Below are positions 812 through 25,042 of a stretch of DNA of 25,178 nucleotides, piece after piece. The notes under the pieces were generated by a model, which was given only the letters and a program-made list of their open reading frames with translations, did not search any database and was not told where the DNA came from. The stretch comes from Halieaceae bacterium. GTDB taxonomy: Bacteria > Pseudomonadota > Gammaproteobacteria > Pseudomonadales > Halieaceae. How positions within the stretch are numbered: position 1 is the first letter of the stretch; each line of letters begins with the position of its first letter. The position numbers and the translations under genes were made by a program. The stretch spans positions 1 through 25,178 of the forward strand of contig DOVB01000058.1 in assembly GCA_003520285.1 (NCBI GenBank), read 5' to 3'.

Positions 812-814
812 CAT

Positions 815-2573: not shown

Positions 2574-2692
2574 GTCAACTGTTGGCGCACAAAGTGGACC
2601 TAGAGAACTGATGGTAGTATTGGTATTGTGGGGGTTACAGTATGTCTGGGATTTGCCCTGGAGCCATGGCCTTGAGCCAAGCAGTAAAACTG

Positions 2693-3664: not shown

Positions 3665-3665
3665 C

Positions 3666-3697: not shown

Positions 3698-3722
3698 CCC
3701 TACTGCTAATTGCTTCTTAGCA

Positions 3723-7216: not shown

Positions 7217-7270
7217 TGGTTACTCCTGAAATTAACAGTTGAGCGGTTGAATGAAAAGACTAAACATAGC

Positions 7271-9100: not shown

Positions 9101-10351
9101 ATGGTAATCAGCGCCGCCAACGACCCAAAAACACCGATTGAAATCTTGTTCAACCCAGCCTCGGATGGGTACCTCAAAGATCCTGTGCCCCAGTACCTGG
9201 CCTTGGCCAATCGCGGCGCGCTGGTTTGGTACGAGCCCTGGCAGGCCTGGATTATGACCCGCATGCCCGATATCATCGAGTGCTGGCGTACAGAGTACCT
9301 ATCCTCGGATTTTTACGATTGGGAATTTGCCCCACAGCGCCCGCCAGAAGACCAGTGGAGCAATTACGAACGTGCGATGATCGGCCACAGCCTGCTTGCT
9401 GACCAGGGTCACCACCGGCTCATTCGTAAAGTGGTTTCTCCAGCGTTTTCGCGCAACGTGGTGGATGAAATTCAGCGCCGTATTAAACCCGACGTGGTGC
9501 AGCTGATTGGTGACCTCGCTGGACTCGAGCGCTTTGATTACATTGAAAAGGTTGCCAGCCACATTCCCTTTATCAGTATCAGCCGCATGGTTGGCCTCCC
9601 AGAGAAGTATTGGCCAGAAATTAAGCAGGTCGTGCTGACATTCACCGAAGCCTGGAATCCGACGCTTTCAGACGATCGTCGCGAGGCGGCTCGCCAGGAC
9701 AGCAACCGCGCCATTGAAATCCTGCAGCGGGTGATTGCCGACCGGCGAGCCAATCCTGGCGATTCGGACTTCCTGAGTGTGCTGCTGAAAATCGAGGAAG
9801 AGAACGAGAAGTTCTCCGACTGGGACATCATCACCCTGATTCTGGCCCTGATCGGTGCTGGTGCCGACACCACCCTAGTAGCGCAACAGTGGACGCTCTA
9901 TTCGCTACTCAAGCACCCTGAGCAGATTCAAGCCGCGCTGGAAACTCCGGACAGCTTCTCCAACGCCTTCAGCGAGGTGATGCGTTGGTCTACGTCATCC
10001 AAGATGGGCTTTGCCCGCTATGCCCCACAAGATATGAAAGTGCTCGATCAGCAGGTGCGCAAAGGCCAGATGGTGCTGATGATGCCACACCTGAAAGACC
10101 ATGACCCAGCGTATTTCGTTGACCCCGAGCGCTTTGATGTGAAGCGCGAATTCAAGCCCGATGTGCTGTTTGGTTACGGCCCGCGCTACTGTATTGGCGC
10201 CGCAATGGCCAAGCGTCAACTTTACCTGACCATGGTCGAGCTGTTCAAGCGTTTCCCCAATCTGCAGCTCGATGGCGAGCCCGAAAAAGATAACTCGGAC
10301 CACAACGCTGTGGTATTTCGGGAATTATGGGTTCGGACCGATACTAGGTGA
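9101..10351 (+). CDS. Cytochrome P450 (bacterial class I type)
   Basis: 416-residue soluble P450, the usual bacterial length when started at ATG 9101, which has GGAAGAG just upstream. Visible motifs are HHRLIRKVVSPAFS at about 104-117 (C helix), GAGADTT at 252-258 (I-helix oxygen activation) and SEVMRW with the ExxR pair Glu292/Arg295. The heme loop FGYGPRYCIGAAMA has the cysteine ligand at 364. It inserts one oxygen atom into a hydrophobic substrate using electrons from a ferredoxin and a reductase. Neither partner is encoded in this window. It opens cluster A, 16 bp before the decayed Rieske gene, and its GC is visibly higher than that of cluster B. Hydroxylation of a steroid or terpenoid fits the context, but the substrate cannot be read from the sequence. 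Confidence 0.93.
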   Translation: MVISAANDPKTPIEILFNPASDGYLKDPVPQYLALANRGALVWYEPWQAWIMTRMPDIIECWRTEYLSSDFYDWEFAPQRPPEDQWSNYERAMIGHSLLADQGHHRLIRKVVSPAFSRNVVDEIQRRIKPDVVQLIGDLAGLERFDYIEKVASHIPFISISRMVGLPEKYWPEIKQVVLTFTEAWNPTLSDDRREAARQDSNRAIEILQRVIADRRANPGDSDFLSVLLKIEEENEKFSDWDIITLILALIGAGADTTLVAQQWTLYSLLKHPEQIQAALETPDSFSNAFSEVMRWSTSSKMGFARYAPQDMKVLDQQVRKGQMVLMMPHLKDHDPAYFVDPERFDVKREFKPDVLFGYGPRYCIGAAMAKRQLYLTMVELFKRFPNLQLDGEPEKDNSDHNAVVFRELWVRTDTR

Positions 10352-10367
10352 TAATGAGATAATCCCT

Positions 10368-11371
10368 ATGAAGAAGCTAGACGACAAACCCATCAATTTC
10401 CCTGGCGCACCTTGCAATAGTGCGACGAGCTCAAGCGCGGCGACATGAGTCCAGTCGAGTGTTTCGACCGCGAACGGGTGCTGTTTCACAGCGAGGACTG
10501 CGCAGTCTCAGTGCTCTATCCTTACTGCCGCGACTTTGGCACTCACCATGGCCAGTATGACATCACCGAAAGCGATTCGCTGAGTCACCCTCCTGGTGCC
10601 TGGGGTAAGTGCAGGGGATACTGGGAGTCAGTGCCTTGCGCCATGCAAATGCTACCGGAAGTCGACAGCGAGCAATATCTGGTCAAGTTCCCGTTGGTAG
10701 AGTTTAGTCACCTGTTCTGGGCCCGGTCCCACTCGAATGGCACTAAACCCAGTTTTGAAGTTGACTCTACCGCAGAGTCGAGTTCTGTGGCTTGGTCACC
10801 ACTAGAGAGCTGCGACTGGAAAATCAGCACCACTATTCAGAAGATTAGCGAGAATACTGTCTATAAGCGGCACTTTATGACTGCGCGCGGCATGCCTCCG
10901 CGCGACTCGGTATTTGACTGCCCGTACTGGATCAAAGAGTTTGACTCCCAGACCCATCCCATTGAGGAGCAGGGAAAAGTGGGTCTTAATGGTATTAATG
11001 ATGGTGCCGTCGTGCACCTGGTGCCTGAGAGCGTAGGCCTTGGCAACACTCTCCAATGCTTTTCAAGTACGTTTGATATGCCTATAGTGCCTAATGCTGC
11101 GTCGATCGAGAACCAAAACGTGCCTCTGCGTTTCAACTGTTCGCTGTCGCGTGAACAGTCCGAAAACAACTCAATGATGGCCAGTGACACGGTGCAGAAA
11201 ATAGTGCGTCAGGTAGAGCAGGACATTCGTACCTTAGATCACAAGGTCTACTTTGAATTGCCCACGCTGTGTGATAGCGACGGCCTGATTGCGAAGTACC
11301 GCAAGTGGTCCCAGCAGTTATACGCTTACATGCTGCACGAGAACCGAATGTTATGCCAAATCAATATTTAA
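10368..11371 (+). pseudogene. Decayed Rieske oxygenase paralogue (all key metal sites altered)
   Basis: A 308-codon frame from 10445 aligns along its length with the intact Rieske oxygenase at 21998, including the C-terminus (LCDSDGLIAKYRKW against LCDGDGPIAKYRKW). The Rieske block has the same 27-residue spacing, but the ligands Cys-His-Cys-His read Cys28, Asp30, His48 and Gly51. At the mononuclear iron site Asp-His-His reads Tyr140, His143 and Arg148. The original start was probably ATG 10368 (MKKLDDKPINFP). After it the frame shifts and an in-frame TAG (10418-10420) precedes CDELKRGD, which matches the region just before the Rieske domain. The protein cannot bind a [2Fe-2S] cluster in the normal way. 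The long remaining frame is surprising for a dead gene, so a non-catalytic product cannot be excluded. Confidence 0.75.
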
Positions 11372-11396
11372 CCGACCTATAAGGATAAATTACGTT

Positions 11397-12161
11397 ATGA
11401 ATGAGCTTTTGATGTCTACTCCTGGTGACCACTACAACTGGCCGATGCTAAAAATTCGATATTGTACCACCGAGGCCGCGGTGGCCGCCGTATTGCCGCC
11501 GGGCTTTGGCCTAGGCAGTCGTCCCGAAGTGACTCTGACAGTTTACAACGTGCCAGTGAACGGTCAGCCCGAGCAAGGCCTGCTGAGCACAGTGGCCTGC
11601 AATTACAAAGGACAGGAAGGCCAGTTCGCGCTGGGTTATGCCATCGACAAGGAAGCCGAGATTTTCATCAGCCAGGAAAAATTTGGCCAGCCCAAGTACC
11701 CGGCCGAGATCAAATACTTCCGTCTGATGGATCAGATCGGGGCGCGAGTCACCCACCAGAACTACACCTTCTTGGAATTCGTTGGCCATGTCACGGAAAC
11801 CCTGGATAATGGCCCCAAATTCGACGAGTACGAATTCTGGGTCAAGTACTCTCGCAAGGCCTCCTACACCGAAACCGGTTTTGATTTCCCGCCGCATGTA
11901 GTCAATGTTGTAAGCAACTACGGCACCGCACAAAAACTAAAAGTCGAAGGCAATTTAATCCTCCGCGACAGCCCCTGGGACCCCTTCTCTGAGCGTCTGC
12001 CGCCGGAATCTAAGCCTGAAACCTGGCTCTGGACTCCGGAGTTCCTGGGTCGTAGCGTCAACCTGGGTGATGCACTGGATGCAGAGGCCTTCGAGCCCTG
12101 GGCCAGCACTATTGGCAACTCACGTTGGCGTGGGAGTAATGGTGGCCCTCTGCAAGCCTGA
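11397..12161 (+). CDS. Acetoacetate decarboxylase-like protein (ADC family), cluster A
   Basis: 254-residue protein of the acetoacetate decarboxylase family. The start is ATG 11397, preceded by AAGGA; the frame is open further upstream but overlaps the Rieske remnant. The core shows LPPGFGLGSRPEVTLTVYN, ALGYAIDKEAEIF and the helix EKFGQPKYPAEIKYF. Lys100 in GQPK occupies the place of the Schiff-base lysine of true decarboxylases. Family members decarboxylate beta-keto acids through this lysine, although many relatives do other imine chemistry such as dehydration or aldol reactions. It sits 25 bp after the Rieske remnant. A sister copy in cluster B (20328) has lost this lysine, so this is probably the only working ADC here. 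The substrate is unknown. Confidence 0.82.
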   Translation: MNELLMSTPGDHYNWPMLKIRYCTTEAAVAAVLPPGFGLGSRPEVTLTVYNVPVNGQPEQGLLSTVACNYKGQEGQFALGYAIDKEAEIFISQEKFGQPKYPAEIKYFRLMDQIGARVTHQNYTFLEFVGHVTETLDNGPKFDEYEFWVKYSRKASYTETGFDFPPHVVNVVSNYGTAQKLKVEGNLILRDSPWDPFSERLPPESKPETWLWTPEFLGRSVNLGDALDAEAFEPWASTIGNSRWRGSNGGPLQA

Positions 12162-13142
12162 GCCGGGCTCACTGACATTTAGTGCGTCAACACTAACGAG
12201 TAGGGACAGATGGGAACTACGCCTGATCGCAGAAAAACTGCTGCAAGAGCCCTACCTCACTCTACCATGGTAATGTTGCGCTGGTCGGAGCCCCGATGCT
12301 GAACTGGACGCAGGACGTGGTGCTGGAGAAGGGGATGATCACCGCCCAGAAACGGGAGCAGGCAAGTCAGGGTGCGCGGGTCTCAATTGGTGCGTTCATC
12401 GCTACTTAGCTACGTGATGCCGGCAGCACCCTCATCGAGTGGCTCGGCTTCCATGTGCCGGATTTGCAGATTAACCGGTGTAGTACCGAAAAGTCTGCAT
12501 TCGCGGCAGCAACCAGCGCGACGCTGAGGCTTACGTTGACGGCCTGTATCTGCCGCGTAAAGAAAGCCAGCTGCTCGACCTAATCGATGTATAGCGTCTG
12601 TCGCCGTCGCTCGGCCGCGGAGGTGTTCTGCATTGCAAGATTACCACTGGCAGCGCCATCACTGTGACCTCGTGGTTTCCCGTGGCGGCATTCTTGAGCG
12701 TTGCTGAAGGTCGAGATTTTTGGACCGGCGTTTGTGCGTCAATCATTGAAAACACGCGGTCAAGCAGACTAACACTTGGCTCCATCTGCTATTACAGCTA
12801 CGAGATCAGTGCGGTGACCGGGCAGAAAGTCTATTCTGTGAGTCGTCAGCCCGCAGCTCTGCTGTCGCGTTGCGACACAGGATGCGGCTGGACTGCAGAT
12901 ACCATGCTTTACTCTGGTGAAGTGCAGCCTGCGAAAAATTTCGAGGTGATGCGGAGCGGCAACTTACGCTACCAACCCGACTGAAGAGCAGCACGTCTCA
13001 GGTACCACTGCCATAGCTGACAATATCGGTGCGTCCAGGATTAGTTTAGGCTCGCTGGGGATGTATGCGCTGGAATTGTGGTATAACTTTTTCATAGCCT
13101 ATGATTTGGGCTGATATTGATTCACTTTAAAGGAGAACCCAA
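12162..13142 (+). pseudogene. Decayed coding region of unknown origin
   Basis: Almost 1 kb between ADC and SDR with no intact gene but obvious coding traces. A frame near 12272-12408 reads VALVGAPMLNWTQDVVLEKG and on to a TAG. The next piece reads LRDAGSTLIEWLGFHVPD. A shifted frame near 12483-12594 reads CIRGSNQRDAEAYVDGLYL and then PRKESQLLDLID before another stop. These blocks have codon-like texture and lie in order on the + strand, so one gene of up to about 300 codons seems to have decayed. I cannot name its family. The last ~120 bp supply the leader and AAAGGAG site of the downstream SDR. Confidence 0.5.
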
Positions 13143-14021
13143 GTGCAGAATTTTAAAGACAAAGTGGTCGTCATCACGGGTGGCGCCAGCGGTATTGGAA
13201 AGTCCTTGGCTCGTGCATTCCTTGCCGCCGGCGCCAAGGTGGTGCTGGCGGATGTCGAGCGCGGTGCGCTGGAGACCACTCGGGATGAGCTGGCGCTTGC
13301 AGGTGGCACGGTGCGCGCCATCGTGACCGACGTATCAAAATCCGATTCGGTGTTAGCGCTCGCCGATGCCGTATTCGAGGAGTTTGGCAGTTGCCACGTG
13401 CTGTGTAATAACGCTGGTGTGAGTGTCACCAACACCAATGTTTGGGATACAACGCCCAACGACTGGCAGTGGGTGCTGGGTGTAAATTTGCGCGGGGTCG
13501 CTCACGGCATCCAGGCATTCGTGCCACGAATGCTCGAGTCGGATGAAGAGGGCGTGATCATGAATACCAGCTCCGGTGACGGGGGAATCTCACCTCTGGC
13601 TGATCAATCCGTCTATGCTTCCAGTAAAGCGGGTTTATCGATCATGACCGAGTGCCTGAATGCTCAGCTGGTGGGCCAGAGCACAAAACTGCGTGCCTGT
13701 ATTTTTTATCCTTCAGGAGGCATTCTCCCCACCGGTATCTGGACCACGAAGCGCAATCGCCCCGACGAGCTGGCCCGCGAAAAGCCGGTGCCTGAGGGTG
13801 GCGAGATGACCTTCGACGAGTTTATGTCGGGAATGAAGGAGATTGGTGTGGATCTACCGGTACAGGATCTGCACGAGCTCGCGGAGTTTGCTCTGGAAGG
13901 TCTGCGCAAACGGGACTTCGTAATAATGATAGGGCGGGAAGCAATGGAAGATACCCTGGTGGAGCGCGCTCGCAAGCTGGCCCGCGGGGAATGTCCCATC
14001 GAGCACGGCTTGCACGGCTGA
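13143..14021 (+). CDS. Short-chain dehydrogenase/reductase, cluster A (GTG start)
   Basis: 292-residue SDR. The start is GTG 13143, with AAAGGAG seven bases before it and an N-terminus (MQNFKDKVVVITGGASGIG) that matches the paralogue in cluster B. The cofactor motif is TGGASGIG at 12-19 and Asp37 suggests NAD. NNAG is at 89-92 and the active site is Ser144, Tyr158 and Lys162. It is longer than classical SDRs by a C-terminal extension of about 40 residues, shared with the SDR at 21109 but diverged in sequence. It probably oxidises a hydroxyl group made by the P450 or Rieske oxygenase. Its neighbours are a decayed gene upstream and a possible transposase remnant downstream. The substrate is unknown. 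Confidence 0.9.
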   Translation: MQNFKDKVVVITGGASGIGKSLARAFLAAGAKVVLADVERGALETTRDELALAGGTVRAIVTDVSKSDSVLALADAVFEEFGSCHVLCNNAGVSVTNTNVWDTTPNDWQWVLGVNLRGVAHGIQAFVPRMLESDEEGVIMNTSSGDGGISPLADQSVYASSKAGLSIMTECLNAQLVGQSTKLRACIFYPSGGILPTGIWTTKRNRPDELAREKPVPEGGEMTFDEFMSGMKEIGVDLPVQDLHELAEFALEGLRKRDFVIMIGREAMEDTLVERARKLARGECPIEHGLHG

Positions 14022-14616
14022 GGCTCGCTGTTACTCGCGTGATCAGGTTCGACAGTAAAAACGGCAGAAGTAGGGAAAGCGTAAACCCGCCTTTTCACTG
14101 AAGAACAAATGGTATGGGGCCCTTTTTCACTGCGGGATAGCCGTTGCTGGTGTCTATTACCTGTTACGTCTTCTCGCCTAGACTTCTTGTAGGCCCTAAG
14201 CTCCGCGGTGCATAAGCGTTGTCACATTGTCACCACGAGTCACTTCAATCGCTGGCTTCTTGGAATCCCTGACGGCCAAGCTGTGAGAGCTATCGCTCAA
14301 AAGTTGGATCGGGCTGCTACTCGCGCCATGAAAGTCAATGCCCGCATCGAAGACTCGGTGGTGATCTAGAAGATCCTAAATCACCTGAAGGAGAACGGTG
14401 AATACCAAGATGTGTTCCGATTGCTCGAGGGTCGCCGGTTCAGATTGGACGGATCACAAGGCCGAAATCCGGCCGATTTCGCTGATTAAGCCCCTGTATC
14501 AGACGAGATTGACGGCGTCTGCCCTCGAAATAGCCGGGTTGTTGCGGGGTGGGCAAGGGGTGGTTTTTCAGTCAAAAGGGGGTTTATACTATCGACACTT
14601 CGATGCCGAGTTCGCT
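14022..14616. other. Intergenic region with possible transposase tail
   Basis: About 600 bp between the SDR and the DUF3604 gene. Part of it is listed separately as a possible IS91-type remnant. The DUF3604 frame is open back to a GTG at 14398, but those 73 residues look non-native. I found no clear terminator for the SDR. Confidence 0.4.
14310..14490 (+). pseudogene. Possible C-terminal remnant of an IS91-type transposase
   Basis: One frame reads AMKVNARIEDSVVI, then a TAG (14367-14369), then KILNHLKENGEYQDVFRLLE. This resembles the ending of IS91/IS801-type transposases (a KVIA-IEDP-VIEKIL-HL pattern known from that family). The TAG would be a single-base change from GAG. No other part of such an element is seen. 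The assignment rests on a short match from memory. Confidence 0.35.
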
Positions 14617-16497
14617 ATGAAACTACTCGTCACAAACGCTATCAGTCTCGCATTCGCGGCAATGCTCATCGCATGCAGCCCCGTCGATGACCCCAGCATG
14701 TTTCCAGCCTTCGACGCGGCAACCGCTACATCCGTTCCGCCAAAGCCGCTGTCGGCACCTAACCCTCATGGCAATCTCTACTGGGGTGACCTGCACGTGC
14801 ACACCAGCTTTTCGACCGACGCCTACACCATGGGTGTGCGCGCTACGCCCGAAGACGCTTACCGCTACTTTAAAGGTGGCGAGATTCGACACGCTGGAGG
14901 CTACGGTATCAAGTTGAGGCGACCGTTGGATTTTGCGGCCGTCACGGATCACTCGGAGTACCTCGGTGTCTTAAAAACAGTAGAGCCGGAACTCACGCTG
15001 AACAAGCGCAACTTTCGAGATCGTCTTCTCGAGGACAGCAAGCTTTGGAACACCGTCATATTCGCCAGAACCCTCGCCTCGTTCGATCTGAAAAATATCC
15101 TGCAATCGGGATGGGAAGACATGACGCGCTCTGCCTGGCAGGAGAGCCAAGATATCACCGAACGCCACAACGACCCCGGCAGATTCACTAGCTTCCATGG
15201 CTACGAGTGGAGTTCAATGCCACAAGGGCGTAACCTGCATCGTAACGTCATTTATCGCAGTTCAGCAGTGCCGGACTTACCTTACTCCTCGCTGGAATCA
15301 GAAGACCCGCGCGATCTATGGAGTGCACTTGAGGTGCAGCGGGAGCAGGGTATGGATAATTTTGCGATCCCCCACAATGGCAACCTCAGTGATGGCATTA
15401 TGTACGGTGATGCGCAATTCTCTGGCGAGCCGATGACAGCCGCTTATGCCGCGCGTCGGCTGCGTAATGAGCCAATCAGCGAAATGTTTCAGGTTAAAGG
15501 CTCCTCTGAAACGCACCTGCTACTCTCCCCACAAGACCCTTTTGCCGGTTTCGAAATTTATGACACTCAGTTGGCCGCGTCCCAGGAATTCTCAGAACCG
15601 CAAGGCGGTTATATTCGCGACGCACTGCGTTTGGGAATCGAGATGTCTCACCGAGAGGGTTTCAATCCCTATCGCTTTGGCGTTATCGGCAGCTCCGACG
15701 GGCATAACGCGAGCTCACCGGTCGATGAAGACCGGTATCACGGTAAACTACCTATGCTGGATGGCAGTGCCGGTGTGCGCCTGCGTGAATCATTTTTCTT
15801 CCCAGAGGAGAGCCCCGGCGGCAAGCTATGGAGCGCTGCAGGACTGGCGGCGGTCTGGGCAGAAGAGAACACCCGCGACGCGCTGTTCGAAGCTATGCGG
15901 CGCAAGGAAACCTATGCCACTTCAGGCACGCGTATCAGTGTGCGCTTTTACGGTGGCTGGGCTTTTGCAAAAGACCTCACCAATAGTCTAAACCGCGATG
16001 TGATCGCACAGGCACAGGGTGTGCCGATGGGTGGGCAATTGCCGGTGCCGCTTGCGGAAGGCGGGGCACCCAGCTTTGCTGTTTGGGCACAGCGCGATCC
16101 AGACAGCGGCAATCTCGACCGCATTCAAATCATCAAAGGCTGGCTCGACAGTAATGGCAACTCGCAGGAGATCATCCATAACGTAGCCTGGGCGGGTGTG
16201 CGCGGGTTGGATGTTGATGGCGATCTGGCACCGATTGGTAATACGGTTGATATAGAGAATTCCTCTTACACCAATACAATTGGCGAAGACGCACTAGCGG
16301 CCGTCTGGACTGATCCGGATTTTGATCCCAATCAAGAGTCCTTTTACTACGCACGGGTGATAGAAATTCCAACGCCGCGCTGGAGCACCTATGATGCGAA
16401 AGTATTGGGTATCACAGCGCCCATGCCTGCTTGGCTTCAAGAGCGCGCGGTCACCTCAGCGATATGGCATCAACCCCCCACGCGACTAAAGCGCTGA
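14617..16497 (+). CDS. DUF3604 family lipoprotein (PHP-like)
   Basis: 626-residue protein. The start is ATG 14617, which gives a clean lipoprotein signal: hydrophobic MKLLVTNAISLAFAAML and the lipobox LIAC with Cys20. The mature protein belongs to the DUF3604 family. It shows GDLHVHTSFSTDA (His60, His62), AAVTDHSEY (Asp111, His112), HNGNLSDG and GSSDGHNASS, a metal-binding pattern similar to PHP-type phosphoesterases. Family members are periplasmic or outer-membrane lipoproteins of unknown reaction and are common in marine bacteria that degrade organic compounds. Only a weak ribosome site is seen. It is separated from cluster A by about 600 bp, so co-transcription is uncertain. A hydrolytic role on an imported ester or phosphate is conceivable but unproven. 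Confidence 0.85.
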   Translation: MKLLVTNAISLAFAAMLIACSPVDDPSMFPAFDAATATSVPPKPLSAPNPHGNLYWGDLHVHTSFSTDAYTMGVRATPEDAYRYFKGGEIRHAGGYGIKLRRPLDFAAVTDHSEYLGVLKTVEPELTLNKRNFRDRLLEDSKLWNTVIFARTLASFDLKNILQSGWEDMTRSAWQESQDITERHNDPGRFTSFHGYEWSSMPQGRNLHRNVIYRSSAVPDLPYSSLESEDPRDLWSALEVQREQGMDNFAIPHNGNLSDGIMYGDAQFSGEPMTAAYAARRLRNEPISEMFQVKGSSETHLLLSPQDPFAGFEIYDTQLAASQEFSEPQGGYIRDALRLGIEMSHREGFNPYRFGVIGSSDGHNASSPVDEDRYHGKLPMLDGSAGVRLRESFFFPEESPGGKLWSAAGLAAVWAEENTRDALFEAMRRKETYATSGTRISVRFYGGWAFAKDLTNSLNRDVIAQAQGVPMGGQLPVPLAEGGAPSFAVWAQRDPDSGNLDRIQIIKGWLDSNGNSQEIIHNVAWAGVRGLDVDGDLAPIGNTVDIENSSYTNTIGEDALAAVWTDPDFDPNQESFYYARVIEIPTPRWSTYDAKVLGITAPMPAWLQERAVTSAIWHQPPTRLKR

Positions 16498-16768
16498 TTA
16501 CGTCCACACCGTAACAACAATCATAACATCGGGAATCCACTATTTTAACGACTGTCCGACTGCCCTGAGCCAGTGGACATCAGGAAAGGCTGCACTGGGC
16601 CCCGTCTGAGCCTTTGGATACTAAAAGTTCGACCTAATAGTTGTGAAAATTATGACGACAATGATAGAACCAACGGATAGAATCGTGCTGCGATGGACAA
16701 ACTTACATGACAATCGCGATGAGAGTTAAACGAATATCGATGTTTACACACTACGCATAGACGATTCA

Positions 16769-18382
16769 TCAGCGACCTCTCAACTCCCGCCGGAGTATCT
16801 TTCCTGTAGTCGACATCGGAAATTTATCGACAAATTCCACTATGCGGGGCACTTCATGCCTAGCAAGATTCTGCCGAACAATATCTTTCAGAGCGTCAGC
16901 GAGCTCTTCACTGGCAGTATAACCGTCAGCAAGAATAATGAACGCTTTAACAACTTCAGTCCGCTGCGCATCCGGGACACCCACAACTGCGGCAGACTGA
17001 ACTGCGTCGCTTTTGAGTAAGCAGTCCTCTATCTCAGAAGGACCAATCCGATATCCGGAACTTGTAATCACATCATCAATTCTGCCGTGGAACCAGAGGT
17101 AGCCATCTTCGTCTTGCTCGCCCAAATCACCACTTATCATCCAATCCCCAATAAATTTTTCTGCAGTGGCTTTTGGATCATCTAGATAACCGGCAAACAT
17201 TGCTGGATGCGGCCTCTGTACAGCAATATTTCCTCTTACGCCGGGCTGAACAATAGCTCCTTTGTCATCAATGATCTTGCAGACGAATCCGGGCAATGGC
17301 TTGCCGAGTGATCCATGCCTAACCTCCATAAGGCGGGGATTTGTCCCAATCATCCCATTGCACTCGGTCTGTCCAAAACCCTCCGCGATAACCAGACCAA
17401 ATCGTTTATCGGCCCACTCAGCAAGCTCCTTGCCGACTGCCTCGCCACCTGACAGCACAACTCTAAGATCAATATTGTGGGCAGGCTCGACATCGACCTG
17501 ACGCATCAGTTTCAGAACCGTTGGAGGCAGAAGTGACACTGTGACCTTATGTTGTACTAGAATTCGAAAAGCCTCCGTGGCGTCGAAGCCTTTCATTGCC
17601 GTAGTTACCACTGGACAGCCCGCGTGCAAGCCCATTAGAAATATATCGACAAAGCCTGCCACCCAAGCCCAGTCGGCAGGAGACCACAACACGTCGTGTT
17701 TCTTAGGAAAATAGTCATAATAGTACTGAAAGAGCGGTACGTTACCCAATAAAACACGGTGTGGCATCATCACGCCCTTGGGCAACCCTGTTGTGCCCGA
17801 AGTGTAGTTAATCCAAGCGATATCTTCAGAATGCGAGCGTATATTACAATACTGATCAGACTCGGAGTCGATTGACTTCCAAAACGAGAGAGAGTCTAAA
17901 TCGCCATCCCCGTCTATAACGATGACGTGTTTTAAATGAGGGCATCCTGCACGAATTGTTTTTATTTTCTCCAAATTATTTGAATCTGTGATACAAATTT
18001 TAGCTCGACTACCTTCAAGTCGGTGTTGCAGCCCGTCAGGACCGAACAGAACAGAGGCCAGACAGGAAACAATACCCGACTTGAAACAGGCGATATGTGA
18101 AATCGCACATTCAGGCCCCTGTGTTAAAACAATCAGAGCACGATCCCCCGCGGAGACGCCCAGTGATCCAAACAAGTTCGCCATTTGATTGGCGTACGAC
18201 CTAAGATCGCTGAAAGTGTAATGTGTAATCTGCTGGTTATGGTCCTCGTGGGTAATAGCCAGCCGACCCTCGTCTTCCGCCCATCTGTCACAGATCGAAT
18301 CAGCAATATTAAAATACTCGGGAATCTGCCACGAAAATTGCTTGCATATTTCCTCATAACTTGACCCAATAGGGAGTTCCAT
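16769..18382 (-). CDS. Acyl-CoA synthetase (acetyl/medium-chain ACS type)
   Basis: 537-residue AMP-forming ligase of normal length for the medium-chain/acetyl-CoA synthetase group. AAAGGAGG precedes the ATG. The ATP loop is INYTSGTTGLPKG, the acyl-site motif is EGFGQTECNG, the hinge region is ISGDLGEQDEDGYLWF followed by GRIDDVITSSGYRI, and the catalytic lysine lies in STTGKILRREL at the end. It makes acyl-CoA from a carboxylic acid. The gene lies 140 bp after the enoyl-CoA hydratase-like gene on the same strand and probably shares its transcript, so the two could handle a side-chain or ring-cleavage acid. It is distinct from the ligase at the left edge. Confidence 0.92.
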   Translation of the reverse strand: MELPIGSSYEEICKQFSWQIPEYFNIADSICDRWAEDEGRLAITHEDHNQQITHYTFSDLRSYANQMANLFGSLGVSAGDRALIVLTQGPECAISHIACFKSGIVSCLASVLFGPDGLQHRLEGSRAKICITDSNNLEKIKTIRAGCPHLKHVIVIDGDGDLDSLSFWKSIDSESDQYCNIRSHSEDIAWINYTSGTTGLPKGVMMPHRVLLGNVPLFQYYYDYFPKKHDVLWSPADWAWVAGFVDIFLMGLHAGCPVVTTAMKGFDATEAFRILVQHKVTVSLLPPTVLKLMRQVDVEPAHNIDLRVVLSGGEAVGKELAEWADKRFGLVIAEGFGQTECNGMIGTNPRLMEVRHGSLGKPLPGFVCKIIDDKGAIVQPGVRGNIAVQRPHPAMFAGYLDDPKATAEKFIGDWMISGDLGEQDEDGYLWFHGRIDDVITSSGYRIGPSEIEDCLLKSDAVQSAAVVGVPDAQRTEVVKAFIILADGYTASEELADALKDIVRQNLARHEVPRIVEFVDKFPMSTTGKILRRELRGR

Positions 18383-18522
18383 TATTAATTCCTCCTTTTA
18401 TGTTGGCTATTGTTCGATTTATAATGTCAAACTTGATTAACACCAACTTTATTATGCTCGACTCAAATCTCAACAGACTCCGTTAAATCAATATTCCCTC
18501 GGCTCTACCAACAACTATCAAA

Positions 18523-19356
18523 TTAGCCGTAGAGTTCCTTTCTTTTTTTAAACGCTGCCTTAACACCATGATTTTTTAAGGTCTTAAAAAAATCACGAAA
18601 GCTATCAAACTGGTGATAAACAGCATCTAGGTCTGCACCTCTCCTAATCGAGGACTCCATCCCCATATTCTCAAACCATGTATTGGAGACATCCTTTAAA
18701 ACCGCTATGTTATCTAAGGGTACACGTGCAATATGCGCTGCTATAGTCGCCACCCTGGCCTCAAGCTCCTCGTGAGTAACCACTTCGTTTATCAGTCCAA
18801 TTCGTGCAGCTTCCTGGGCGTCTATCAGCCTTGAGGTATATAAAAGCTCTTTAGTCTTCCGATAACCGATAAGCATTGGCCAAAACATAATCGATGGAGG
18901 AATGCCGAGATCACATGCGGCTGGATGGCCAAACCGCGCCCATTCACTGACAATTGCTAAATCACAAACTGCAAGAAGTTCACCAGCACCAGAGAGGCAA
19001 TCTCCTTGAACTTGAGCAATGATTGGCTTAGGGTAGCGCCAAATCTTCATCCAATAATCTACAATCAGATGCACATCCCGCCTGTCCTGTTCAATATTGA
19101 CACTTCCTTCAAAATTTCCAGGATATTGACTGGTAATCCAATGCTCCTCTCGTAAGTCGTATCCAGTAGAAAAAGCCTTACCGTTTGCTTTTATAATAAT
19201 CACACTCACTGCGCTGTCGTTCTTTACAGCCTCGAGTGCAGCGGCGAGTTCATCAAGCACTTCCCGCGAGAGTGGGTTGAGCTCTGTCGGCCGATTTAAT
19301 GTAATACTGAATACTCGCTCTGCCTGAGACGTCAAGATCGTGTTATAAGTCATCAT
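18523..19356 (-). CDS. Enoyl-CoA hydratase/isomerase family protein (one catalytic Glu replaced)
   Basis: 277-residue crotonase-fold protein. The oxyanion-hole segments are GKAFSTGYDL (about 59-68) and GDCLSGAGELLAVCD (118-132). Of the two glutamates used by hydratases, the first is present (Glu126 in GAGEL). The second, normally in a QPE-like motif, is Ala146 here (FGHPAACDLG). Simple hydration is thus doubtful; isomerase, hydrolase, C-C cleaving or decarboxylating crotonases often differ at exactly this site. AAAGGA lies before the tandem ATGATG start. It is first in a likely operon with the acyl-CoA synthetase and downstream of the TetR gene. A thioester substrate is very likely. Confidence 0.88.
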   Translation of the reverse strand: MMTYNTILTSQAERVFSITLNRPTELNPLSREVLDELAAALEAVKNDSAVSVIIIKANGKAFSTGYDLREEHWITSQYPGNFEGSVNIEQDRRDVHLIVDYWMKIWRYPKPIIAQVQGDCLSGAGELLAVCDLAIVSEWARFGHPAACDLGIPPSIMFWPMLIGYRKTKELLYTSRLIDAQEAARIGLINEVVTHEELEARVATIAAHIARVPLDNIAVLKDVSNTWFENMGMESSIRRGADLDAVYHQFDSFRDFFKTLKNHGVKAAFKKRKELYG

Positions 19357-19575
19357 TGTTGTAATTTCCTTTGCTTGATGTGGTCAGTTGGCAATGCGCA
19401 CTGCGAAAGAACTGCACGTCGTCGAACTATTTGTTATTAGTAAATTAGAGCTTATCAACGAGTCCTGGTCATCATATAAATTTCATACTGTCAATTAACG
19501 CTTCCCTAAACCGGTGAGGTGCTGGTCGGACGATAAATGTCGTTACACTAATTTAGATCCTCTAATGTCGGCAAT

Positions 19576-20193
19576 CTAGCCATAATCTTTATCTTTGATC
19601 AAAGAAGGAACTAAGAAATTCCTCAACGTTGCTCTCGAGTAGAGGCGCGTCTTTTTGGAGGGCATATTTGCAACTTGCATAGACATAACGACAAAAGAGG
19701 CCCAGTCGATATAGTTATCCATCCTAATCCCTTTTCTTAATCTACCTTCTTTTAAGGCGCGTTGATAAGTCGGTGTGGCGCAGGCTATCGAAGCCCGACG
19801 AAATGCAGATAGAGACTCTGCAGTTTGTTGGTAGCGCTGCCACTTAATATCGGAGCATACAAGGCTCAGCGCTGGGCGACGAATAAATTGCTCAAGGAAC
19901 CAAAGCATGTCCTCCTCGATTTGCTCTTCTAATGACTCGTAGCATCTGCTAACAGATTGGAATTCAAGCATTAAAGCATCAAAATCTCTGTTCAATACTT
20001 GGTTGAGCAAATCATCACGACCACTGCAGTGGCGGTAGAACGTAGAGCGCCCAACTTCTGAGAGGTCGATTACTTGGCTTATTGAGGTTTTTTCAATGCC
20101 TAGCTTGCGATACAGGCTGATTGCTGCATCGAGAATAGTGTTTCGCGTACTGGTAATTCTTTTGTCAACATGAGCTCGATCGTTAGTCTTCAT
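19576..20193 (-). CDS. TetR/AcrR family transcriptional regulator
   Basis: 205-residue regulator. The N-terminal helix-turn-helix occupies about residues 17-65: TRNTILDAAISLYRKLGI, TSISQVIDLSEVGRSTFYRH and then CSGRDDLLNQVL, the classic TetR pattern. The C-terminal part is an all-helical ligand domain of usual size with no recognisable ligand signature. It is divergent from cluster B (134 bp gap) and upstream of the hydratase/synthetase genes on its own strand, so it probably represses one or both in response to a pathway intermediate. An inverted repeat in the gap is a candidate operator. Confidence 0.9.
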   Translation of the reverse strand: MKTNDRAHVDKRITSTRNTILDAAISLYRKLGIEKTSISQVIDLSEVGRSTFYRHCSGRDDLLNQVLNRDFDALMLEFQSVSRCYESLEEQIEEDMLWFLEQFIRRPALSLVCSDIKWQRYQQTAESLSAFRRASIACATPTYQRALKEGRLRKGIRMDNYIDWASFVVMSMQVANMPSKKTRLYSRATLRNFLVPSLIKDKDYG

Positions 20194-20327
20194 TTTTTAA
20201 AACTGTTTGTAATGTAGTGAAACAAAATACCACAGTATGTTCTGTTTAGTTAGACATTGAGAACAAAATCGCATAGCTTTGACAGACTATAAAGCGTCGA
20301 AGTAACCGCTATGGTGCGGAGGTGTTC
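20194..20327. promoter_or_regulatory. Divergent promoter/operator region of tetR and cluster B
   Basis: The gap contains the inverted repeat TGTTCT (20238-20243) and AGAACA (20260-20265), a weaker TGTTT/AAACA pair just left of it, and a -35-like TTGACA (20279-20284) facing cluster B without a strong -10. GGAGGT stands before the ATG of the decayed ADC gene. Binding by the adjacent TetR protein is inference. Confidence 0.35.
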
Positions 20328-21075
20328 ATGAGTATACATACCCCGCCCATGAGAGTGCCTGGCGACATAGCGAATTGACCGATGCTGAAGATCGAATATT
20401 GCACGGATCCAAAAGGCATCGCTATGCTGTGCCCCGAGCTGTAAAGTTGGCAAAAATCTAAAGTTGCTCTCTGTACACAATTATCACTTGATGGATGTTC
20501 TAAAAAATGGCTGCACAATGATGATCGCCGCTGACTGCAACATGATCAAAGGGCAATGCGCACTTGCTTATGCAATGGACCAAGAAGAGGTTGTCTATCC
20601 AAGCCGTGAACATTGGGGGCAGGCTCAATATTTGGCTACCATCAATTATTTCACTTTTATCGGTGAGGGTATGGCTCAGGTCATGCACCTAGCGCAAACT
20701 TTTGTTGAATGCAAAAGCGTGGTCTCTAGCTCTGATGGTCCTGGCGAAGCGTTTGAATTTACTGGGTGGCGGATCAAGTCGGCCTGCGACTTGAGTATAG
20801 GAAACGGTAAGCTTGAGTTCTCGCTACAAAGCTGTCGTGTCAATCAAAAATACGGCGCCGCCCTTCGGCAAACCGATAAAGGCGAGATGTTTCTGCGTGA
20901 AAGCAAATCGGATCTAATTTCTGAGTGTCTACCTACGTGGGAAATGGTTCACACCTACTTTTGGACACTAAACTCTCTAAATCGCAGTATTATAAAAGCT
21001 GGTGAGTTGGATGCCGATGAGTTTTGGCCTTACGCAGAAGCGATAGGCGACTCGAGATCTCCAGCTAAGGTCTGA
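20328..21075 (+). pseudogene. Decayed acetoacetate decarboxylase-like gene, cluster B
   Basis: The original start is ATG 20328 with a strong GGAGGT site. The reading GDIAN-stop-PMLKIEYCTD aligns with GDHYNWPMLKIRYCTT of the intact copy at 11397: the Trp codon TGG has become TGA (20376-20378). A second stop, TAA, is at 20442-20444, and a deletion/frameshift follows because the next 203 codons (from 20464) are in another frame. This remaining frame keeps the family pattern, but GQPK has become GQAQ, so the Schiff-base lysine is gone. The ending (ELDADEFWPYAEAIGDSR) still matches the intact copy (ALDAEAFEPWASTIGNSR). The gene cannot yield a normal decarboxylase. A separate C-terminal product from ATG 20464 has no visible ribosome site. 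Confidence 0.8.
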
Positions 21076-21108
21076 GCCTATGGAAACCTAAGAAGCAAAG
21101 GAGTAGCT

Positions 21109-21987
21109 ATGCAAGATTTTAAGGGTAAACTCGCTGTCATTACCGGCGGCGCCAGTGGGATCGGCCGTTCTCTTGCCTTTGCGCTTGGTGCAGAAGGGGC
21201 CAGTGTGCTAATAGCTGATGTAGACCAAGCAGCATTAGATGCTACGCTAGCGTCTCTCTCTGAACTAGGCGTGTCGGCCAGTGCTCAGATTTGTGATGTG
21301 CGCAAATCAGCCGACCTTGCGGCGCTGGCCAGTAAAGCATTTGACAAACTTGGTGGCGCACATTTAGTGTTTGCGAATGCAGGTGTTGCGGCGGGTGAAG
21401 CGGGGCCTATGTGGGGCTACGCTGACAATGACTGGAAGTGGTGTTTCGACGTTAACTTATGGGGAGTGATTAATACCATAAACGCGTTCATGCCTAGATT
21501 AATTGCTGCCGATGAAGAAGCCAGTATCATGATTACTGGCTCCGGTAACGGCGCATTTTTGGTTTATCCAGACCAACCGGTTTACTCGGCGACTAAAGCC
21601 GCAGTTCAGGCGGTCACCGAAGCTTTGTATCAGCAGTTACAAGTCGCGCAAAGTAAGGTAAAGGTGCACGCTCTGTTCCCAGGGCCGCATATTGTTGATA
21701 CTGGTATTTTTGATTCTGACCGAGTTCGACCAAGCGACTATACTAAGGCAGCAGACGCACCTGATAGCGGTATAAAGACCGCCGACGATTTGCGGATACT
21801 TATGGAGAGTTACGGCGCTAGTTTGGAAACCACACATCCTGATGAAGTTGCTCAGACTGCGCTGATGGGCATTCGCGATAGCAAATTTTGGGTGATGGAG
21901 TGGAATCCAAAAACACGTTCGGAAGTAGAAAAACGCATGCAATCAATTCTAAATCAAACCAACCCCGTACCACCCAGCTTGGGTTGA
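21109..21987 (+). CDS. Short-chain dehydrogenase/reductase, cluster B
   Basis: 292-residue SDR, the same length as the cluster A copy and with the same N-terminal pattern (MQDFKGKLAVITGGASGIGR). It has TGGASGIG at 12-19, Asp37 for NAD preference, a variant ANAG motif at 89-92, and Ser145, Tyr159 and Lys163 as the active site. It carries the longer C-terminal region shared by this pair. AAAGGAG lies before the ATG. It is second in cluster B and only 10 bp before the Rieske gene, so translation is probably linked. It likely oxidises the alcohol made by that oxygenase. Confidence 0.92.
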   Translation: MQDFKGKLAVITGGASGIGRSLAFALGAEGASVLIADVDQAALDATLASLSELGVSASAQICDVRKSADLAALASKAFDKLGGAHLVFANAGVAAGEAGPMWGYADNDWKWCFDVNLWGVINTINAFMPRLIAADEEASIMITGSGNGAFLVYPDQPVYSATKAAVQAVTEALYQQLQVAQSKVKVHALFPGPHIVDTGIFDSDRVRPSDYTKAADAPDSGIKTADDLRILMESYGASLETTHPDEVAQTALMGIRDSKFWVMEWNPKTRSEVEKRMQSILNQTNPVPPSLG

Positions 21988-21997
21988 GGAGCTAATT

Positions 21998-23026
21998 ATG
22001 GGACATTTACAGGATCTATCAACAGGCTTATCAATTCCATTTGGTTGGTACGCCGTTGCATACAGTAAGGACCTGCAACAAAAAGACGTTCAGGCTGTTA
22101 ATTTTTTCGGGCAAGAATTGGTCTTGTTTCGCACCGAGAGTGGTAAAGCAAAACTTATGGAACCTTACTGTCCCCATCTTGGCGCTCATTTAGGGCACGG
22201 CGGTAAAGTGAAGGGTGAGTCCATCGCTTGCCCCTTTCACGCTTGGGAAATTGACGGCACTGGGTCTGTAACAAATATACCGTACGCAAAGAATATGCCC
22301 AAGCGTGCAACGGAGGGGCCGTGCTTACACGCTTTTCCGATACAAGAGATGAACCAGATGGTGTGGGCTTGGTACCACCCAAATAAAGCCGCACCGTCTT
22401 TCGATATCATTGAGGTGCCAGAGTTCTCTGATCCAAATTGGAGTGAGTTAGATACATACGAGTGGGAGATTAATACCTGCTTACAAGAGTCTGGTGAGAA
22501 TGCAGTAGATATTGCACATTTTGTTTATGTGCATGGTGCAGCCGATATGCCGCGCGCAGAAGTTATCTTAAATGGCGCGCACCGATCAACCGACATGGTC
22601 ACGCGCACGCCTCGGATTGATGAAGAAGGGAATATCGACATGACCGAAATGGAAGACATGCATTTGGTCACGCAAAACTTTGGTCCAGGTATGGCGTTAC
22701 AAGTATTCGCTCGCGCTTTCAAAACAGTGATGATGGCAAGTATGGTGCCGATCACTGCCGACCGCATCAAGTTACGTTTTGCATTCACTAAACCCAAAGA
22801 CATTAGCGAGCAATTTAACATGTTCACAGATGTGCTGATTGAAGAAATTGTGCGCCAAGTAGGCCACGATATTCCAATTTGGGAGAACAAAATCTATCGT
22901 GATAACCCCATTCTTTGCGATGGCGATGGCCCAATCGCCAAATATAGAAAATGGTTCAAACAATTTTATGCAGAGGAAGGTGAAGGCGACACAACGGGAA
23001 GACCTTCACTCCGCGCAATAAATTAG
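21998..23026 (+). CDS. Rieske non-heme iron oxygenase, oxygenase component (KshA-like)
   Basis: 342-residue oxygenase with all metal sites intact. The Rieske motif is Cys58-x-His60, 17 residues, Cys78-x2-His81 (YCPHLGAH and ACPFHAWE). The mononuclear iron motif NAVDIAHFVYVH has Asp171, His174 and His179. The C-terminal IWENKIYRDNPILCDGDG and KYRKWFKQFY resemble, from memory, the end of 3-ketosteroid 9alpha-hydroxylase KshA (IWKHK-RIDNPLL and RRWYEQFY). This places it with KshA and the cholesterol-desaturase-like Rieske enzymes rather than with two-subunit ring dioxygenases; no beta-subunit gene is present. It probably hydroxylates a steroid or other alicyclic substrate, taking electrons from a reductase encoded elsewhere. 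GAGGAG precedes the ATG, and gaps of 10 bp on both sides imply an operon. Confidence 0.92.
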   Translation: MGHLQDLSTGLSIPFGWYAVAYSKDLQQKDVQAVNFFGQELVLFRTESGKAKLMEPYCPHLGAHLGHGGKVKGESIACPFHAWEIDGTGSVTNIPYAKNMPKRATEGPCLHAFPIQEMNQMVWAWYHPNKAAPSFDIIEVPEFSDPNWSELDTYEWEINTCLQESGENAVDIAHFVYVHGAADMPRAEVILNGAHRSTDMVTRTPRIDEEGNIDMTEMEDMHLVTQNFGPGMALQVFARAFKTVMMASMVPITADRIKLRFAFTKPKDISEQFNMFTDVLIEEIVRQVGHDIPIWENKIYRDNPILCDGDGPIAKYRKWFKQFYAEEGEGDTTGRPSLRAIN

Positions 23027-23036
23027 GAGCGTAGAA

Positions 23037-24251
23037 ATGGGATCTGACCGTCACTTGGTAATTTCGTCTGATTGCCATGCCGGGTTACCGGCAGCAAAAT
23101 ATCGGGAGTATATGGACCCGAAATATCGTGATATGTTTGATATTGCATTGCCCATTCAAACAGAAATGACCGATATGGCAGAAAAAGTGTTCCTGCTTAA
23201 GGATGTCAACGATGAGTGGCGCAGCGGCATTCAAGAGCATTTATGCGGTGCTTGGGATTACAAGAAGCGCATTGAGGTACTTAACGGTGACGGCATCGCT
23301 GGAGAAGTTATATTTCCTGACGGTATCACCGAGCAAAATGCGCCGCCATTTGGTGCTGGTTTGCAAATGCCGACTAAGAATGTCATAGCAGAACTGCAAT
23401 GGGCCGGTGCACGGGCGCACAACCGATGGCTGGCTGAAATGGTCTCGAACAATCCCGCGCGCCATTTTGGTATTGCTGTTTGCCCAATTCTTTGGGATGT
23501 TGAAGAAGGCATTAAAGAAGTGCGTTGGTCTGCTAAAAATGGACTAGGTGGGGTGCTTTTACCCTTATTGACTAATGAGTACGAGTCATACCACAACCCG
23601 AAATATGATCCATTCTGGGAAGTCTGTGAAGACCTTAACATTGTTGTATGTTTTCATTCTGGCCCAGCGCCGATGGAAGACTACTACGGGCAAATGTTCC
23701 CAATGGGTGACATTGAAAAGTACCCAGGTGCAGTGGGCATTTTCATCTCTGAAGTGTTCTTCTGGACATACCGCCCATTGATTTTCATGGCTTGGGGAGG
23801 TGTGTTTGAACGTTTTCCAAAATTGAAAGCCAGCGTTACAGAAACAGGCCAAGGCTTTTTATTGCCACCTATGTTGCGAATGCTAGATCACCATTATCAC
23901 GACACGCATTTCTCAGCGAAGCTCGGTGACTACCGCTCGCACTTGTCGATGTCGCCGGTCGATTATTTTAAACGTAACTGCGCGATTGGTGCATCTTGTA
24001 TGCCACGTGGTGATGTTGAAATGCGCCATCAATTGGGTATGGATCAACTAATGTGGGGCAGTGATTACCCACATCCCGAGGGTACATGGCCGCATACGGC
24101 GAAAGAAGTGAAAGAAGCGTTTCAAGGTTTTCCCGAGGACGACGTCGCTGCTATTCTTGGTGGCAATGCGGCTAAGTTTTACAACTTTGATGTAGATGCG
24201 CTGGCGCCTATCGTAGCGCAAGTAGGACCCCTTAAATCTGAATTTGTATGA
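23037..24251 (+). CDS. Metal-dependent amidohydrolase (amidohydrolase_2 family)
   Basis: 404-residue TIM-barrel protein of the amidohydrolase_2 group, which contains aminocarboxymuconate-semialdehyde decarboxylase and resorcylate decarboxylases. The first metal motif is SSDCHAG (Asp12, His14). The central His lies in CFHSGPAP (about residue 206), ETGQG follows, and the last metal Asp lies in WGSDYPHPEGTWPHT (about 340-354). The HPEG-W form is common in members of degradation clusters annotated only as amidohydrolase. It could hydrolyse or decarboxylate the product of the Rieske/SDR steps, for instance by C-C bond hydrolysis. AGGAG lies before the ATG. The stop overlaps the next start by 4 bp (ATGA), showing tight coupling. 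Confidence 0.9.
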   Translation: MGSDRHLVISSDCHAGLPAAKYREYMDPKYRDMFDIALPIQTEMTDMAEKVFLLKDVNDEWRSGIQEHLCGAWDYKKRIEVLNGDGIAGEVIFPDGITEQNAPPFGAGLQMPTKNVIAELQWAGARAHNRWLAEMVSNNPARHFGIAVCPILWDVEEGIKEVRWSAKNGLGGVLLPLLTNEYESYHNPKYDPFWEVCEDLNIVVCFHSGPAPMEDYYGQMFPMGDIEKYPGAVGIFISEVFFWTYRPLIFMAWGGVFERFPKLKASVTETGQGFLLPPMLRMLDHHYHDTHFSAKLGDYRSHLSMSPVDYFKRNCAIGASCMPRGDVEMRHQLGMDQLMWGSDYPHPEGTWPHTAKEVKEAFQGFPEDDVAAILGGNAAKFYNFDVDALAPIVAQVGPLKSEFV

Positions 24252-25042
24252 TCAAGCCGGGCGCTAATGCGAGCGATTTCACGAAAGGAGCCGCGTTGGT
24301 GCTCGGCGCCAGTGGCGCATTGGGAGCGGCCTGCGCTGAGAAGATAGGAGCGGACGGCAATAATCTTGCTCTCACTTACCGCAGTAACCAGCTCGCGATA
24401 ACCGAATTAAAAAGGAGAATTGAAGAAAAGGTCTTCAAAGGTTTTATTAGCAGCCATAAGCTAGACGTATCTTCCACTATCGAATGCCTCGACTTAGTGC
24501 GTGATGTTGTTTCAGCCCACGGTCGTATCAATACATTGATCTATGCTATTGGCACCAATATTGCGCAACCGCTGGTAGCTGAAATCACTCCTCAACAGTG
24601 GTCGGAGGTAGTCAATCAGGATCTGCAAGGATTTATGAACATTGTGCAACCGGTAATACAGCACATGCGTGATAATGGTGGCGGTTCACTTATTCATATT
24701 TCGTCCGCTGGCCTAAGTAAAACACCATCGAGAGATGCACTTTCTGTAGCACCCAAGGCCGCAATCGACGCATTGATGCGCACCATTGCCGTCGAAGAGG
24801 GAGCGAATAAAATTCGTGCCAACAGTGTTGGAGTCGGTGTTATAGAGGCGGGAATTTTTAAACGGCTCGAAGCAAAAGGCGTGTTTGATGAGAATTGGAA
24901 GGCGGCTGTTAAAGCTGTCTTACCGCTGTCTACTTTTGGTAGTGCAGAAGATATCGCTGAAGCGGCGAATTTTCTTGCCTCTGAGCGTGCCAAGTATATT
25001 ACGGGGCAATGTCTGTTTGTTGACGGCGGATACAGTGCTTAG
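24248..25042 (+). CDS. Atypical short-chain dehydrogenase (catalytic Tyr replaced)
   Basis: 264-residue SDR-fold protein starting inside the stop codon of the amidohydrolase. The cofactor motif is altered to LGASGALG at 19-26, and the usual NNAG is YAIG at 99-102. At the active site Ser153 and Lys170 can be placed, but the Tyr of YxxxK is Ser166 (LSVAPK). The C-terminal GQCLFVDGGYSA is normal for the FabG-like subgroup, so the fold is intact. It may be a reductase with another proton donor, an enoyl-reductase-like enzyme or a non-catalytic partner. The open frame and tight coupling argue against a dead gene. Confidence 0.88.
   Translation: MIKPGANASDFTKGAALVLGASGALGAACAEKIGADGNNLALTYRSNQLAITELKRRIEEKVFKGFISSHKLDVSSTIECLDLVRDVVSAHGRINTLIYAIGTNIAQPLVAEITPQQWSEVVNQDLQGFMNIVQPVIQHMRDNGGGSLIHISSAGLSKTPSRDALSVAPKAAIDALMRTIAVEEGANKIRANSVGVGVIEAGIFKRLEAKGVFDENWKAAVKAVLPLSTFGSAEDIAEAANFLASERAKYITGQCLFVDGGYSA

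Follow-up and report, generated by a model that had tools for sequence, protein, structure and literature searches.

Reciprocal decay of Rieske oxygenase and acetoacetate decarboxylase-family genes in a pair of neighbouring clusters from different sources on a contig binned with Halieaceae

Gene cassettes that combine a Rieske oxygenase, a protein of the acetoacetate decarboxylase (ADC) family, and a short-chain dehydrogenase (SDR) are widespread in the gammaproteobacterial family Halieaceae, and they form the background to the system discussed here, a pair of neighbouring clusters, A and B, on contig DOVB01000058.1 of the Halieaceae bacterium assembly GCA_003520285.1. The window, by which we mean the whole stretch of DNA analysed (25,178 nucleotides), is one complete contig (C262) of this binned genome, which comprises 285 contigs with a total of 1.80 Mb and is 73.6% complete (hereafter the bin); its family is taken as Halieaceae. 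The likeness to the family cassettes lies in the proximity of Rieske and ADC genes, found within 3 kb of each other in 32 of 32 well-matched cases, and in the SDR of cluster B (SDRB), which groups with the SDRs of those cassettes; the difference is that the living Rieske and the living ADC stand here in separate cassettes. In this contig the reciprocal decay of the two clusters, which lie near each other and differ in origin, is real and well supported; the arrangement is new, and its evolutionary kind is known.

Among enzymes of solved structure, the best relative of the intact Rieske oxygenase of cluster B (RieB) is KshA, the oxygenase of 3-ketosteroid 9alpha-hydroxylase (PDB 4qdc, 2zyl; 143.5 bits), with which it has the Rieske and KshA_C domains in common. 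KshA is a distant relative, and RieB is only a candidate for 9alpha-hydroxylation of a 3-ketosteroid. The KshAB system is not known to include an ADC or an amidohydrolase. The ADC of cluster A (ADC A) can be compared with the solved acetoacetate decarboxylase-family protein 3c8w (PF06314), with the PK of which its lysine aligns in a weak match (E 0.04), while the amidohydrolase of cluster B (AH) is nearest to DitZ (PDB 8uyr, 86.9 bits) and PtmU3 (6omp, 60.5 bits), a similarity from which no function is carried over. As an evolutionary process, the locus resembles xenologous gene displacement in bacteria (e.g. PMC1274311), in which a horizontally acquired homologue supersedes a resident gene, but here displacement would have run both ways, one step being kept from the newcomer and the other from the resident. 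It also resembles duplication followed by reciprocal loss, for example of the bile-acid conjugating enzymes (PMC6934887), in which redundant copies were lost complementarily, although that case concerns an animal gene duplication, whereas two steps and two clusters of different origin are involved here. No description of the cassette was found in the literature, judged by titles and abstract openings.

Cluster A spans positions 9101-14021 and cluster B positions 20328-25042, a divergent regulator at 19576-20193 being counted with B. For comparison we draw on Halieaceae loci and on loci that we call Arenicella-type, which belong to the genomes of L004 (Gammaproteobacteria bacterium) and of L005 and L006 (uncultured Arenicella sp.), designated G161, G162, and G163. 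The genes of the two clusters are as follows.

9101..10351, plus strand: cytochrome P450 of cluster A, intact (PF00067; 79-85% identity to the P450s of 13 loci, L090-L102)
10368..11371, plus strand: RieA, the dead KshA-like Rieske oxygenase of cluster A (46% identity to an intact orthologue)
10445..11371, plus strand: the still-open 308-codon frame of RieA (a 98% identical open reading frame of 308 residues with the same start stands in P0001)
11397..12161, plus strand: ADC A, acetoacetate-decarboxylase-family protein of cluster A, intact, lysine kept (PF06314, 98.1 bits)
12275..13093, plus strand: remnant of a TonB-dependent receptor in cluster A (found by tblastn with the intact receptor of L090)
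13143..14021, plus strand: SDRA, short-chain dehydrogenase of cluster A, intact, 292 residues (83-89% identity to the SDRs of 11 loci)
19576..20193, minus strand: TetR-type regulator of cluster B, divergent (PF00440; 62-66% identity and the same place in L004-L006)
20328..21075, plus strand: ADC B, the dead ADC gene of cluster B (recognised by alignment, stops, and frameshift)
21109..21987, plus strand: SDRB, short-chain dehydrogenase of cluster B, intact, 292 residues (76-79% identity in L004-L006)
21998..23026, plus strand: RieB, KshA-like Rieske oxygenase of cluster B, intact (PF00355, PF19298; 86% identity in L004-L006)
23037..24251, plus strand: AH, amidohydrolase-2 family protein of cluster B, intact (PF04909; 82-89% identity in L004-L006, two of which are cut by the contig end)
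24248..25042, plus strand: SDRC, second SDR of cluster B, open (PF13561; no orthologue identified in L004-L006)

The lesions fall on opposite members of the two clusters. RieA, read from its native start at 10368, carries a frameshift near 10400 and a TAG at 10418-10420, and its alignment shows CPH turned into CRD, CPFH into HPPG, an iron-site aspartate into tyrosine, and the second iron-site histidine into arginine. Taking CPH...CPFH to be the ligands of the Rieske cluster and N..D..H....H to be the iron site, three of the four cluster ligands are replaced and five of the eight catalytic positions are gone, the first cysteine, the first iron histidine, and the C-terminal aspartate being still present; in Pfam the protein matches KshA_C alone (56.9 bits, above the cut-off) and the Rieske domain is not matched, so that it no longer counts as a Rieske protein. 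RieB is complete, has both the Rieske (77.4 bits) and the KshA_C (118.3 bits) domains above the curated cut-offs, and aligns with all of the ligand and iron-site positions in place. For the ADC step the roles are exchanged: ADC A is open, belongs to its family by profile, and retains the lysine of the QPK motif, presumably the Schiff-base lysine position of the family, and ADC B has an in-frame TGA at 20376-20378, a frameshift near 20434, and QAQ in place of QPK, its 203-residue piece matching no Pfam family, so that it qualifies as an ADC neither by profile nor by lysine. A preliminary description of this DNA had already recognised the ligand loss and stop of RieA, to which the frameshift is now added, as well as the lysine of ADC A and the completeness of RieB; of the two in-frame stops that it gave to ADC B, together with a frameshift and a missing lysine, all are borne out except the TAA at 20442, which lies past the frameshift and outside the frame of the gene. 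The TonB-dependent receptor between ADC A and SDRA is also a ruin: compared with a relative of 867 residues, only the parts corresponding to residues 22-261 (apart from small gaps) and 822-867 survive, and it has a TAG at 12407, another at 12592, a frameshift near 12488, and a deletion of about 560 codons. The remaining long genes of the window are open in a check of reading frames and stops. The lesions of RieA and ADC B are probably no isolated sequencing error, because 98% identical open reading frames of both dead genes (308 and 194 residues) stand in the protein collection, in clusters of 31 member sequences each.

Both clusters exist on their own, with Rieske and ADC intact, in other genomes. 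Among 140 family genomes searched, the A-type ADC (78-87% identity) occurs in 10 besides the bin, and P450, Rieske, and ADC genes are together and open in all 10 of the Halieaceae loci fetched for it; SDRA follows the cassette in 8 of these 10, and in 2 the ADC and SDR genes are separated by a TonB receptor gene. In 12 of 13 Halieaceae loci (all but L092) recN is no more than 0.8 kb from the cassette or its P450-SDR form, and neither recN nor dnaK has a match in the window; dnaK also falls within the fetched stretch of the recN-linked cassettes L090, L091, and L093-L102. Cluster B is found as TetR-ADC-SDR-Rieske-amidohydrolase, with ADC and Rieske open, in L004-L006, which come from three Arenicella-type metagenome-assembled genomes, the contig stopping inside the amidohydrolase in two of them, and each of these genomes has one ADC match. 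Among 58 genomes searched, the bin included, none had another gene more than 55% identical to RieB. In one Halieaceae genome that also carries an intact cassette A (G030), a second ADC gene (G030:C10:128143-128887) was matched as two pieces in different frames and is possibly another dead ADC.

Judged by their sequences, the Rieske pair and the ADC pair are counterparts across the two clusters, RieB being 51-54% identical to the ten intact A-type Rieskes and ADC A 46-48% identical to the three intact B-type ADCs. The 292-residue SDRs, which the preliminary description had aligned as a third pair, are not: a tree of 54 SDRs (in which two outgroup SDRs sit on very long branches, with a warning from the tool) puts SDRA and SDRB in different subfamilies, and the equal length proves misleading. 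SDRB groups with 17 SDRs that belong to ADC loci in the family, and SDRA groups with its cassette-A orthologues among SDRs 56-59% identical that the listings place away from ADC matches; its identity is 38% to SDRB and 54-61% to SDRs found away from ADC matches, so that the pair is not homologous at the level of the cassette.

The state of the reading frames is matched by the pattern of selection, which was examined with a hand-written codon branch model on codon alignments (a fixed tree per test, the same optimum from three starts) that gives omega, the ratio of nonsynonymous to synonymous rates, in tests limited by near-saturated synonymous sites. Omega rises to 0.524 on the RieA branch against a background of 0.068 (twice the log-likelihood difference, 2dlnL, 36.0) and to 0.458 on the ADC B branch against 0.048 (2dlnL 20.1), and on the window branches of RieB (0.051), ADC A (0.068), P450 (0.072), SDRA (0.033), and AH (0.029, on 204 codons) it is not above background. 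Of the positions invariant among intact relatives (10 rows for RieA and ADC A, 3 for ADC B and RieB), the dead copies retain 107/195 (RieA, 55%) and 91/146 (ADC B, 62%), and the living ones 171/177 (ADC A, 97%) and 272/284 (RieB, 96%). RieA and ADC B are thus relaxed, and their living counterparts are under strong purifying selection.

The two clusters also differ in source. The fraction of G and C is 0.460 in positions 1-8000, 0.547 in A, and 0.467 in positions 16700-25042, against 0.527 (standard deviation 0.021) in a sample of 20 contigs from the bin; at third codon positions it is 0.65-0.67 in the P450, ADC A, and SDRA genes and 0.45-0.46 in those for SDRB, RieB, AH, and SDRC. The tetranucleotide distances to the bin and to L004-L006 are 0.243 and 0.177 for the left flank, 0.189 and 0.271 for A, and 0.249 and 0.158 for B, the last value being helped by the fact that B lies within L004-L006; the bin's own contigs are 0.133-0.216 from the rest. 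The genes that flank cluster A are the following.

2693..8035, minus strand: SnoaL-like protein, TonB receptor, SCP2, and SDR0 (backbone block left of cluster A; parts of this gene set recur in unchanged order in the Arenicella-type loci L165-L167)
14617..16497, plus strand: DUF3604 protein, GC-rich, adjoining cluster A (PF12228)
16769..19356, minus strand: acyl-CoA ligase and enoyl-CoA hydratase (the backbone block to the right of A; the same pair in L168 and L169)

On the left, the backbone TonB receptor (3723-6233) is 68, 56, and 55% identical to proteins of G162, G163, and G161; in the remaining 24 genomes searched besides the bin, its full-length identity does not exceed 42%, with a partial hit of 50% in G030. 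The ligase-hydratase pair on the right recurs in the Arenicella-type locus L168 (71% and 76% identity) and in the Halieaceae locus L169 (63% and 68%). G161 at least is a distant organism, because its RpoB is 68.6% identical to that of the bin, whereas values inside the family are 83-91%; in G162 and G163 no rpoB was found. We considered and rejected vertical inheritance of A within the genus of the bin, no ADC match being present in four same-genus genomes, in which the right-flank DNA also had no match and the left-flank DNA had two short ones, of 174 and 43 bases. The spacers around A gave no boundary of an insertion, as blastn and tblastx against the fetched loci returned a single hit, in spacer 1500-2070; no clear target duplication emerged from a repeat search of positions 8000-17000, in which insertion sequences were not specifically sought, and no tRNA was found. 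The DUF3604 gene was tried as a member of cassette A and discarded, having no match in 16 context loci; its family is matched in 22 of 22 genomes searched (11 times in the bin). The resemblance of the left flank and of cluster B is thus to Arenicella-type DNA, and the GC-rich cluster A is of Halieaceae type; most likely, therefore, A was imported next to a B that was already resident. The contig would be either misbinned Arenicella-type DNA with A from Halieaceae or a mixed block in a Halieaceae genome; under either origin A and B are of different sources, and the two-cluster argument is internal to the contig.

Set beside the observed lesions, the intact single cassettes of relatives, the different sources, and the constraint on the surviving Rieske, ADC, P450, SDRA, and amidohydrolase, the history that we favour, and consider probable to a fair degree, is that a redundancy made by transfer was settled once on each side and that the survivors, RieB and ADC A, work in one pathway. 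A Halieaceae-type P450-Rieske-ADC-TonB-SDR cluster would have been inserted beside a likely resident Arenicella-type ADC-SDR-Rieske-amidohydrolase-SDR cluster, with both steps then encoded twice and each lost once, the newcomer's Rieske and the resident's ADC being broken and the other copies left intact. Loss would have followed the redundancy created by transfer, and the newcomer's receptor may have been dropped since the cell already had one, another receptor lying about 6 kb upstream of the remnant. Each cluster presumably forms one operon, and RieB and ADC A would now serve a single pathway fed by two separately transcribed clusters; the interchangeability of the A and B copies of each step is predicted. 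The partnership of the two steps is suggested by the neighbourhoods of their relatives, for all 32 ADC matches of at least 45% identity, in 23 other genomes, have a Rieske match within 3 kb, so that it would be unusual for a living ADC to have no Rieske partner at all. As to the substrate, DitZ and PtmU3 are presumably linked to diterpenoids. Breakdown of a polycyclic (steroid- or terpenoid-like) compound is the likely prediction, because among solved enzymes KshA is nearest to RieB and DitZ to AH and because Halieaceae include steroid degraders (PMC5790920). A promoter scan of the window was uninformative (17 hits, 11.7 expected).

A number of observations pull the other way. The partnership is one-sided: six weaker ADC matches (25-31% identity) comprise three with a Rieske neighbour and three without any listed, and an ADC lies within 3 kb of only 35 of the 68 Rieske matches typed from the listing, so that it is nothing unusual for RieB to lack an ADC of its own. 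The bin contains two further Rieske genes on other contigs (C115, C259), and four same-genus genomes carry Rieskes 44-46% identical to RieB without an ADC match. The distance between RieB and the A-type Rieskes, and the unrelatedness of SDRA and SDRB at cassette level, mean that the substrates of the two clusters may differ. SDRB is itself mildly relaxed (omega 0.128, 2dlnL 4.71), an omega of 1 stays compatible with ADC B (2dlnL 1.15), and for RieA it is weakly excluded (2dlnL 4.27), with synonymous sites near saturation. On the side of provenance, the nearest relative of ADC A in the searched family genomes is 87% identical, and a 91% identical protein is known without its context; positions 16700-20200 are about equally far in tetranucleotides from the bin (0.277) and from L004-L006 (0.270), and the right flank is equivocal, its ligase being 71% identical in G163, 64% in G030 (Halieaceae), and 30-31% in G161 and G162; the contig, differing in composition from the 20 sampled contigs, may not belong to the bin.

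Several of these facts would suit two independent pathways that decay separately without complementing each other, A being a P450-SDR(-ADC) module and B a Rieske-amidohydrolase module: P450 and SDR occur without an adjoining Rieske or ADC in three further genomes of one genus, g16 (L100-L102), the SDRs belong to different subfamilies, the Rieske types are 51-54% identical, and 33 of the 68 Rieske matches have no ADC nearby. Yet ADC A is constrained (omega 0.068, 171/177 invariant positions) in a family of which all 32 close members have a Rieske partner, and we regard separate decay as unlikely, if worth keeping in mind. That the stops and frameshifts are errors, or that the contig joins two organisms, is very improbable; the fragmented and incomplete binned genome, with a contig composition unlike that of its sampled contigs, would allow it, but the dead genes have lost many conserved residues besides their frame, near-identical open reading frames of both recur in the protein collection, and the window's other long genes have open frames. 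Returning to a transfer-made redundancy settled on each side, of the checks that the preliminary description proposed, dN/dS, GC per cluster, and single intact cassettes (10 A loci and 3 B loci) were all obtained; its statement that A is richer in GC agrees with the third-position values, and its suggestion that transfer brought in a second copy, by which half of each cluster became redundant, is supported by the different sources, the intact versions, and the constraint on one Rieske and one ADC. One working pathway split over two transcripts, its other proposal, is plausible from the consistent pairing of ADCs with Rieskes and is tempered by the divergence of the Rieskes and by those that lack an ADC.

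A separate question is whether RieA is still read, either as a pseudo-enzyme, a non-catalytic partner of RieB, or as a translated spacer that keeps ribosomes moving to ADC A, which we consider improbable. Read from the native start, the short frame stops at a TGA whose letters overlap the ATG that opens the 308-codon remainder (ATGA, 10445-10448), and beyond the start region all three indels comprise whole codons. Simulation with a single nucleotide model, in which present-day relatives stand in for ancestors, predicts 4.4-7.5 stops at a neutral time of 0.2-0.3 substitutions per site, against one seen in 309 codons (P 0.0025-0.062 across the settings), and 5.7-7.5 at a time of 0.3 (P 0.0025-0.0135), the time of 0.3 being obtained by arithmetic from the branch omegas. 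Conservation is higher in the last 49 residues than before them (29/39 against 78/156 invariant positions, P 0.007), and the exclusion of an omega of 1 (2dlnL 4.27) points the same way. Each of these tests is, however, modestly significant and dependent on the estimated decay time, a single stop being ordinary at a time of 0.1 (P 0.15-0.30); for ADC B as a whole, in which one of 249 codons is a stop, P is only 0.01-0.09, and the TonB remnant, which likewise lies upstream of a living gene (SDRA), has lost its frame. It is thus a tentative and rather doubtful proposal that selection for uninterrupted translation toward ADC A keeps the frame of RieA open, with the lesions in the first 26 codons bypassed by the ATGA restart at 10445; literature on polarity and pseudogenes yielded nothing on point, judged by titles and abstract openings. 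If it were true, missense changes would come before nonsense changes in the decay of pseudogenes inside operons, and operon fossils would systematically be mistaken for living genes.

Descriptions of reciprocal loss usually concern the duplication of genomes or genes, and here the redundancy brought by a transferred cluster appears to have been settled step by step. Because A and B cassettes in which Rieske and ADC are intact exist on their own, the exchange of Rieske and ADC partners between them is directly testable. Such a history would explain the scattering of catabolic pathways over several operons, and it is a warning that operon membership may be a poor guide to which enzymes still cooperate.

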